IMG/VR virus record: IMGVR_UViG_3300005842_000020
Span: 1 to 43,520 of that record
Direction: 5' to 3' (one strand)
Length of the DNA: 43,520 nucleotides
DNA from: a virus
Part shown: positions 41,987-43,520 of the stretch, piece after piece
How positions within the stretch are numbered: the first letter of the stretch is position 1
Layout: each line of letters starts with the position of its first letter
Translations under genes and position numbers: made by a program
The notes under the pieces: generated by a model
What the model saw: the letters and a program-made list of their open reading frames with translations, nothing else
Database searches by the model: none
Told to the model about the DNA's origin: nothing

Positions 41987-43039
41987 ATGATACATCTCGG
42001 ATTATTCGCCGGAATTGGAGGTTTTGAACTTGCTGCCAAATGGATGGGTTGGAAAACTTTAGCGTGGTGTGAATGTAATGAGTTTGGGCAAAAAGTATTG
42101 CGGTATCATTTCCCGGAAGCCGAAGGATTTGGAGACATAACAAAAACAGACTTCAAAAAGTATGCAAACAGAATTGATGTTCTTACCGGAGGATTCCCCT
42201 GCCAACCCTACAGCACTGCCGGCAAACGACTTGGAACAGAAGATGACAGACACCTCTGGCCGGAAATGCTTAGAGCAATTCGCGAAGTTCAACCGTGCTA
42301 CGTTGTGGGCGAAAACGTTCGCGGCCTTACTAATTGGAAGGGAGGGTTGGTATTCGACCAGGTGCAGGCTGATTTGGAAAATGAAGGTTACGAAGTGCTC
42401 CCGTTTTTACTTCCAGCTTGTGCCGTCAATGCGCCACATAGAAGGGACAGGATTTGGTTTGTTGCCCACGCCAGTGAAAATGGATCACATGGCTCCAAAA
42501 ACAGATCGGGTAATACAAAAGGAAATTACAATAACCAGACCGGGGCGCACACAGTTGAGCAACTTGCGGGATGTAGTAGTCAGGCAGCCCGAAAGACTGT
42601 TACCAGCCCCACGGGCATCGGAGAACGATCAGGGGCCGAAAGCAAGGGCGGGAATGATAGAGGCTGGCAGTTCATGGCTGGGTCAGAATCGGGGCGCAAC
42701 AATAACGACAATGGCGAAGGCCGGATTATTACCAACCCCAGCGGCCAGAGACTACCGTTCACCACACGCGGAGAACAGCGAAAAGTTTCAAGCCAGGCAA
42801 CTGGAACCACGCGGAGTAAGCTTGGTGGAGCATTTACAGAGGTTGCAGGATGGGAAGGTTTCCCAACTCAATCCCCGCTTCGTGAACGAAATGATGGGTT
42901 TCCCACCGAACTGGTTGGAATTACCATTTCAAAACACAGAAACGAAAGTTTGAAAGGATACGGAAATGCAATCGTTCCGCAAATCGCTTTGATGATATTT
43001 AAATCAATTAAAGAGTATGAAAAATTGCAGAGTTTGTAG
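41987..43039 (+). CDS. dcm: DNA cytosine-C5 methyltransferase
   Basis: I choose the start at 41987 (MIHLGLFAGIGGFELAAKW), 350 residues; an upstream ATG at 41912 would include the promoter. Motif I LFAGIGGFE (6-14), motif IV GGFPCQPYS (68-76, catalytic Cys72), motif VI ENVRG (109-113), motif VIII RRDRIWFVA (152-160), motif X GYGNAIVPQ (324-332). Residues 161-285 are a low-complexity Gly/Ser/Asn/Thr/Arg stretch where the target-recognition domain belongs, and that part is overlapped by another ORF in the +1 frame. The C-terminal 9-14 residues are replaced by sequence running into an HNH gene. It probably protects phage DNA from host restriction. Confidence 0.92.
   Translation: MIHLGLFAGIGGFELAAKWMGWKTLAWCECNEFGQKVLRYHFPEAEGFGDITKTDFKKYANRIDVLTGGFPCQPYSTAGKRLGTEDDRHLWPEMLRAIREVQPCYVVGENVRGLTNWKGGLVFDQVQADLENEGYEVLPFLLPACAVNAPHRRDRIWFVAHASENGSHGSKNRSGNTKGNYNNQTGAHTVEQLAGCSSQAARKTVTSPTGIGERSGAESKGGNDRGWQFMAGSESGRNNNDNGEGRIITNPSGQRLPFTTRGEQRKVSSQATGTTRSKLGGAFTEVAGWEGFPTQSPLRERNDGFPTELVGITISKHRNESLKGYGNAIVPQIALMIFKSIKEYEKLQSL
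42162..42953 (+). CDS. LLPTP-repeat protein overlapping dcm in the +1 frame
   Basis: 263 residues wholly inside dcm, in the +1 frame (dcm residues 59-322). It reads like a real conserved protein: EDSPANPTALPANDLEQKMT, then SGRKCLEQFAKFNRATLWAK, WYSTRCRLIWKMKVTKCSR, three LLP(T/A)P-type repeats (LLPTPVKMDHM, LLPAPRASEND, LLPTPAARDYRS) and SQLNPRFVNEMMGFPPNWLE at the end. I recall the same sequence blocks in separate proteins and in the same arrangement in Bacteroidota phages, so both frames are probably translated. Function unknown; the starts at 42162 and 42177 are equally possible. Confidence 0.7.
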   Translation: MQTELMFLPEDSPANPTALPANDLEQKMTDTSGRKCLEQFAKFNRATLWAKTFAALLIGREGWYSTRCRLIWKMKVTKCSRFYFQLVPSMRHIEGTGFGLLPTPVKMDHMAPKTDRVIQKEITITRPGRTQLSNLRDVVVRQPERLLPAPRASENDQGPKARAGMIEAGSSWLGQNRGATITTMAKAGLLPTPAARDYRSPHAENSEKFQARQLEPRGVSLVEHLQRLQDGKVSQLNPRFVNEMMGFPPNWLELPFQNTETKV

Positions 43040-43493
43040 TACTGAGTTAACTAATGAAAATTGGATGCCCTCACTAAAAAAGAAAAATTGTATAATCTGT
43101 AGAGAGTGCAATAACACAAAAGGCCGCGAATGGCGTTCAAAAAATAGGTCAAAAGCAAATCAATACAGCCTGAACAGGTATTTCAAGAACCCTAAGAAAT
43201 CACAAGAAATAACCCATAAATCAAGGATTAGGTTAAGAATTGATACAATAGTAGCGTATGGAGGGAAATGTTCCATATGTGGTATAAGTGATGTCGACGT
43301 ATTGGATATAGATCATATTAGCAATAATAGAGCGGAGCACAGAAGACAGGGTTTTCATGGGTACAATCTATACAGACTTCTAAAAAAACAAAACTTTCCT
43401 ATAGACAATTACCAAGTATTATGTAAAAACTGTAATTGGAAAAAGGAAATTTTAAGGCGTAAAAAAGAAAGAGTTGGCACTACAAATTTTTAA
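43017..43493 (+). CDS. HNH endonuclease inserted at the dcm 3' end
   Basis: 158 residues. It begins in the last 23 bases of dcm (MKNCRVCSTELTNENWMPSL). Two CxxC pairs near the N-terminus (NCRVC and CIICREC) form a zinc element. The HNH core follows: GGKCSICGISDVDVLDIDHI, then YQVLCKNCNWKKEIL. It resembles phage homing endonucleases. Sequence after the stop repeats the codons of the Dcm C-terminus, so the gene seems to have entered there and replaced the old end of dcm. Confidence 0.85.
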   Translation: MKNCRVCSTELTNENWMPSLKKKNCIICRECNNTKGREWRSKNRSKANQYSLNRYFKNPKKSQEITHKSRIRLRIDTIVAYGGKCSICGISDVDVLDIDHISNNRAEHRRQGFHGYNLYRLLKKQNFPIDNYQVLCKNCNWKKEILRRKKERVGTTNF

Positions 43494-43520
43494 AGCAATT
43501 GAACAATACGAACTTATTCC
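43486..43520 (+). other. Remnant of the original dcm 3' end
   Basis: In frame from 43486 the sequence reads I-F-K-A-I-E-Q-Y-E-L-I, a close match to the Dcm C-terminus IFKSIKEYEKL (residues 337-347). It starts within the last codons of the HNH gene and runs to the edge of the window, so its length is unknown. Confidence 0.6.

Follow-up and report, generated by a model that had tools for sequence, protein, structure and literature searches.

A gene nested in the +1 frame of phage dcm genes and its probable role as the recognition subunit of a two-subunit C5-cytosine methyltransferase

RESULTS

A second open reading frame lies inside a viral dcm gene

The window analyzed here is a stretch of 43,520 nucleotides of viral DNA (IMG/VR record IMGVR_UViG_3300005842_000020), and its end encodes a C5-cytosine DNA methyltransferase, dcm, referred to below as alpha (Table 1). 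Alpha matches PF00145 (E 5.4e-43, residues 30-367), TIGR00675 (E 1.1e-35), and phrog_363 (E 9e-70), and it carries the motifs that mark a PF00145 C5-methyltransferase: I, IV (PCQ), VI (ENV), VIII, and X. A preliminary description of this DNA, made from the sequence, had listed motifs IV, VI, VIII, and X as retained, and all four were read in the alignment together with motif I. The true start of alpha is likely the second ATG, at 41987, where homologs begin. Motif IX and a target recognition domain (TRD) are not found in this chain. A motif IX matrix, based on seven examples of this motif taken from canonical plasmid methylases, detected no motif-IX-like window in alpha after motif VIII (best score, 2.7, versus 20.4 in beta), and the interval from motif VIII to motif X holds low-complexity sequence only, with no recognizable TRD. 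The preliminary description had put the low-complexity stretch at residues 161-285; the stretch is there, but it spans residues 186-310 of the 375-residue ORF, and the earlier numbering fits a count from the second ATG. The dcm of one relative has an insertion of about 120 residues between the end of beta and motif X (L002:2253-2617), which is absent in the window.

The second ORF, beta, is contained entirely within the alpha ORF. The preliminary description had reported a 263-residue ORF at this position with a series of ordered blocks, and each of them was found: EDSPAN, SGRKCLEQFAKFN, WYSTRCRLIWK, the LLP(T/A)P repeats (LLPTP, LLPAP, and LLPTP, beginning at residues 100, 146, and 189), and QLNPRFVNEMMGFPPNW. 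Beta matches phrog_1008 over most of its length (E 2.1e-27, residues 5-258 on profile positions 38-285 of 329), a family that is labelled "DNA methyltransferase" yet is not one by sequence. Searches of Pfam and NCBIfam with beta returned no match. For the N-terminal domain, AlphaFold predicts helices at residues 32-41 and 48-59 and strands at 69-76 and 82-89, with pLDDT mostly at 70-90. The model of beta alone is poor overall (pLDDT 64, pTM 0.34), a Foldseek search with it found no PDB match, and beta profiles found none among PDB sequences.

Downstream of dcm, and overlapping its end, lies an HNH endonuclease-like gene. At the end of the window, bases 43471-43520 give ELALQIFKAIEQYELI, which repeats the C terminus of dcm (QIALMIFKSIKEYEK) in a second version. 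The arrangement resembles an insertion of the homing type into motif X, in which the 3' end of dcm was re-supplied and the old end was left downstream. Among the other loci fetched, only copies of the same contig have the HNH gene.

Table 1. Features of the dcm locus, with positions counted from the first base of the window
Feature	Positions	Strand	Basis
Alpha (dcm), C5-cytosine DNA methyltransferase ORF, 375 aa	41912..43039	+	PF00145, TIGR00675, phrog_363
Alpha motif I, LFAGIGGF	42002..42025	+	Sequence, alignment
Beta, overlapping gene in the +1 frame of alpha, 263 aa, ATG start	42162..42953	+	phrog_1008; shuffle, codon-position, and SD tests; hhalign
Beta N-terminal domain over alpha motifs IV-VIII (SGRKCLEQ..., WYSTRCRLIWK...)	42162..42446	+	Predicted structure
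Alpha motif IV, GGFPCQPYS (+1 frame: EDSPANPT)	42188..42214	+	Sequence, alignment
Alpha motif VI, GENVRGL	42308..42328	+	Sequence, alignment
Alpha motif VIII, APHRRDRIWFVA	42431..42466	+	Sequence, alignment
Beta LLPTP repeat 1, residues 100-104	42459..42473	+	
Alpha low-complexity stretch at the expected TRD position	42467..42841	+	Substitutions in relatives; shuffles
Beta LLPAP repeat 2, residues 146-150	42597..42611	+	
Beta LLPTP repeat 3, residues 189-193	42726..42740	+	
Beta motif-IX-like block, SQLNPRFVNEMMGFPPNWL, residues 234-252	42861..42917	+	Motif IX matrix; hhalign
Alpha motif X, GYGNAIVPQIA; begins 2 bases past the beta stop codon	42956..42988	+	Sequence, alignment
HNH endonuclease-like gene, after dcm and overlapping its end	43017-43493		

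The nested gene belongs to a large family with a fixed register

A tblastn search with beta retrieved 74 phage records, among them Paenibacillus larvae phages, Lacticaseibacillus, Bacteroides, and Xanthomonas phages, and marine phages, and the matches inspected lie within a dcm gene and keep the register found in the window. The homologs share 26-54% identity with beta and sit in very different dcm genes, so they are not exact copies of one locus. The preliminary description had placed such proteins beside phage Dcm genes; the relatives do exist, but they are located inside dcm rather than beside it. Scans of viral contigs matched at least 579 and at least 414 beta relatives, and a scan of bacterial genomes matched 208, of which the best 80 are mostly from Firmicutes prophages. 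Alpha/beta pairs were also recovered in Klebsiella, Enterobacter, and E. coli and on cyanobacterial plasmids (Picosynechococcus and Nostoc), and related pairs span phages or prophages of Firmicutes, Bacteroides, Actinobacteria, and Proteobacteria. This two-in-one gene is carried by hundreds of phages and prophages and is usually annotated as one gene.

The register is nearly invariant. Beta lies in the +1 frame in 254 of the 255 tabled alpha/beta pairs, and the remaining pair is fused. Motif X falls in the alpha frame in 230 of the 254 and in the beta frame in 7, with 17 left undecided by the motif pattern. No standalone beta occurs among the 255 loci, which were retrieved by beta similarity. 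When the query was alpha alone, beta was present in the +1 frame at 80 of the 80 best loci, which is not an unbiased frequency because the rows of the query alignment were alphas that all have a beta. More generally, the loci were chosen by similarity, and the frequencies given here are therefore no population estimates.

In public phage records, beta is often unannotated or labelled as a DNA methyltransferase, and some of the annotated starts look wrong; PrincessTrina gp82, for example, is annotated from position 1749 of L173, where the frame is open from 1485. The homolog in Paenibacillus phage Rani is gp51, annotated as "g50 Internal gene." A literature search found no paper on the nested phage family, which does not prove that such papers are absent.

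Substitution patterns follow the beta frame

Of 1,000 synonymous shuffles of the window alpha, one retained an open +1 frame, with 5.6 stops expected, so the openness of this frame is not due to chance. With the window left out of the beta profile, the real frame scored 207.9 bits and the shuffles 52.5 ± 11.5 bits (maximum, 89.4), a distance of 13 standard deviations. Stops in the +1 frame of related phages had been suggested as a sign against a second protein; the frame is open across the relatives, and the median shuffle probability per locus is close to zero.

Mismatch rates at the three codon positions of alpha were computed from 144 disjoint pairs of loci. Ahead of the overlap, the rates at positions 1, 2, and 3 are.128/.077/.426, and where beta overlaps motifs IV-VIII they are.135/.076/.255. 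The fall at the third position amounts to a loss of 40% of its freedom, and synonymous variation is thus not free in this part of the overlap. Between motifs VIII and IX the rates become.442/.295/.274, and past the end of beta they return to.227/.173/.449. In the VIII-IX interval, 142 of 143 pairs have their most variable site at alpha position 1, the third codon position of beta. This phase flip is upheld with a nucleotide alignment (.374/.251/.250) and in ungapped pairs of equal length (.203/.085/.080). Of the 117 differences that close pairs of loci show between motifs VIII and IX, 70 leave the beta residue unchanged (25.6 expected) and 22 the alpha residue (25.2 expected). The excess in beta and its lack in alpha indicate that purifying selection acts on beta and not on the alpha residues of this interval.

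The reverse shuffles, which preserve beta, left the alpha frame open through 42467..42841 in 9 of 1,000 cases. Alpha is kept open through the interval because motif X must be reached, and its amino acids there appear unconstrained, with the frame merely held open. Beta is a genuine, ancient, conserved, and selected coding gene with homologs. The proposal that two conserved proteins share this DNA is thereby borne out by homologs, open frame, and codon-position rates, as is the suggestion that the second frame sets the codons of the TRD region, where the periodicity flips to beta.

Embedded start signals in bacterial relatives

A Shine-Dalgarno (SD) sequence followed by a start codon is embedded within alpha in 60 of 75 bacterial loci, against an average of 5.9 and a maximum of 14 in shuffles. 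The embedded SD is typically AAGGAGG, and the PCQ motif follows the start at a distance of about 47 bases. The preliminary description had proposed a look for a start signal near 42162 or 42177 in the window; no SD was found before the beta ATG. In a Bacteroidetes-like host, the missing SD would carry little weight. The embedded SD sites of the Firmicutes relatives support translation of beta from its own start, and by extension beta of the window would be initiated in the same way.

Motif IX and repeat units are found in cis or in trans to the catalytic motifs

Most beta proteins of the loci analyzed have 1-5 units of the LLPTPxAxD type, with a median spacing of 39 residues. Their shared block LNPxFVxxMMGFPxxW is the best window for the motif IX matrix in 110 of 110 betas. 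Aligned with hhalign to canonical C5-methyltransferases, the beta alignment matches at the motif-IX block only, a likeness that is weak when taken alone (P 2.8%, E 0.016).

The relationship is much clearer in one-chain relatives. Mycobacteriophage DLane gp65 and about 20 relatives encode motifs I-VIII, LLPTP repeats, motif IX, and motif X in a single ORF, and in four close relatives of these enzymes the same parts are divided over two frames. The VIII-to-IX segment of a one-chain methylase, with its LLPTP repeats and motif IX, aligns with window-type beta at P 97% and E 7.7e-11 (hhalign). Segments homologous to beta therefore fill the VIII-to-X interval of one-chain methylases, the very place where alpha is without motif IX. 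A split type also exists, in which alpha ends soon after motif VIII and motif X lies in the beta frame (L093, L094, L121, L173, L178, L184, and L197; PrincessTrina gp81/gp82 is of this type). Taken together, the fused and split relatives place the LLPTP and motif IX region at the TRD-IX position of a C5-methylase, either in cis or in trans.

Among the relatives compared, identity is 68% in the LLPTP region, against 90-98% in alpha, 86% in the beta N terminus, and 91% in motif IX. No other part changes as fast or differs as much in length as the LLPTP region, and this fits the expectation for a target recognition region. In the AlphaFold model of a fused protein (L345), the catalytic domain is well modelled and matches M.HhaI in Foldseek (E 2.7e-11), and the IX-X end is of moderate quality (pLDDT about 65-86). 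The LLPTP region, about residues 190-340, is left unplaced (pLDDT below 40), so contact between these units and DNA is something that we infer rather than read from the model.

Several observations concern the history of these arrangements. Close mycobacteriophage relatives (L343-L369) differ by whole LLPTP units, from 1 to 7, in enzymes that are otherwise similar, which suggests recombination of units. In several fused enzymes (L172, L343-L345, L348, L349, L354, and L355), a residual +1 ORF that contains two LLPTP units still covers motifs IV-VIII, as though a nested or split ancestor had given rise to the fusion. Three related loci (L131, L132, and L160) are irregular: the alpha frame holds a motif IX of the RMNPAWIEWLMGYPIGWTEL type, the +1 ORF is truncated and includes a second block resembling NPELLEWLMGY, and motif X, as read in L160, falls in a different ORF. 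This arrangement is not fully covered by a two-subunit model.

DISCUSSION

Proposed function of the two products

Our preferred interpretation, to which we assign a probability of roughly 0.88, is that a single stretch of DNA here codes for both chains of a two-subunit C5-cytosine methyltransferase, with beta as the subunit for recognition and motif IX. Alpha, in the main frame, would provide the SAM-binding and catalytic motifs I-VIII as well as motif X. Beta, initiated separately within the alpha message, would contribute what alpha is missing, a variable recognition region of LLPTPxAxD-type units and motif IX, and it would probably dock on alpha via its predicted helix-helix-hairpin N-terminal domain. 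Assembly of the two chains would complete the small, DNA-reading half of the enzyme. Phage C5-methylases are generally known to act against host restriction, and on this basis the likely purpose of the enzyme would be the methylation of phage DNA against restriction by the host. That alpha and beta physically assemble, that the LLPTP units recognize DNA, and that the enzyme counters restriction are inferences on our part.

A further and distinctly tentative idea is that the units, each of about 39 residues and with its own target, form a modular recognition array. Phages might gain, lose, or swap units and so alter the specificity of methylation, and the nesting might hold the catalytic and recognition halves together through recombination.

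Alternatively, beta may be a real overlapping gene with an independent job, such as a regulator, an inhibitor, or an anti-restriction protein, and not a part of the methylase. It constitutes a PHROGs family of its own (phrog_1008), and it has an N-terminal domain besides the LLPTP and IX parts, both of which an independent protein would accommodate. We nevertheless regard this as improbable, since the one-chain methylases have the LLPTP and IX parts as an in-frame segment that joins motif VIII to motif X, alpha is devoid of motif IX, beta takes up motif X where alpha ends after VIII, and beta without alpha was seen at 0 of the 255 tabled loci.

Slightly less probable still is programmed frameshifting from alpha, which would make a single chain of motifs I-VIII, TRD, and IX and leave beta with no start of its own. 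The order of the parts in the DNA would indeed yield the canonical one-chain order, and the natural fusions indicate that one chain is viable. Yet the conserved N-terminal domain of beta over motifs IV-VIII would be pointless if the shift came after VIII, SD sequences and start codons are enriched at the 5' end of beta, and motif X would require a second shift back.

That the +1 ORF is an untranslated by-product of a conserved alpha and skewed codon use is very improbable: part of the likeness is forced, as the 52 bits kept by shuffled alpha genes and the reading of GGFPCQPYS as EDSPAN in the +1 frame attest, but the real score far exceeds the shuffles, substitutions between VIII and IX track the beta frame where alpha is unconserved, embedded SD sites are enriched tenfold, seven canonical plasmid C5-methyltransferase genes inspected have no such +1 ORF, and the same sequence occurs in frame in the fused enzymes. 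Codon constraint from alpha was accordingly ruled out by the shuffles, the phase flip with its two controls for alignment bias, and the SD enrichment.

Under the two-subunit interpretation, both halves of an enzyme, the catalytic and the recognition one, can share a single piece of DNA. The genes belong to a large, deep family with full overlap, and natural fusions and splits allow a function to be proposed for both products. The interpretation would account for the many phage "Dcm" proteins that seemingly lack a target recognition domain, and alpha cloned alone may yield an inactive enzyme. It also supplies a missing gene for phage annotation and opens a test of whether exchangeable units set the anti-restriction specificity of phages.

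Comparison with known systems

Two-polypeptide C5-methylases are already known. The small gene of M.EcoHK31I was reportedly found by Lee, Kam & Shaw in 1995 to be nested in the large one in another frame, with both proteins needed for activity. In this enzyme (recognition sequence, YGGCCR), the large chain carries motifs I-VIII and X and the small chain carries motif IX (PMC3404938). The window pair shows the same division of motifs. M.EcoHK31I differs in its bacterial origin, in being paired with a restriction enzyme, and in having the TRD placed in the larger polypeptide, whereas in the window alpha is unconstrained at that position and the variable region is in beta. In M.AquI (CYCGRG), the alpha and beta polypeptides share the motifs of one enzyme, and the small subunit consists of half of the TRD with motifs IX and X (PMC3404938). 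The window, with motif X in alpha, does not have this layout, but the seven split loci, PrincessTrina gp81/gp82 (L173) among them, do divide their motifs as in M.AquI. The overlap of the M.AquI genes is shorter than in these split relatives.

The multispecific C5-methyltransferases of SPbeta and phi3T have a variable number of units of about 40 residues between motifs VIII and IX. Enzymes of the SPbeta type carry tandem exchangeable TRDs with several specificities in one chain, whereas the family described here has its tandem units in a separate overlapping gene and with an LPTPxAxD signature. Homologs of beta such as phrog_1008 and Rani gp51 have been named "DNA methyltransferase" or "hypothetical protein," without a stated function. 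As far as we found, the new elements are how large and widespread the family is, the evidence of selection, the embedded start signals, the LLPTP array, and the series of fused, split, and nested forms that assigns a function. The nested phage family is a large and unnamed addition to the known two-polypeptide C5-methylases.
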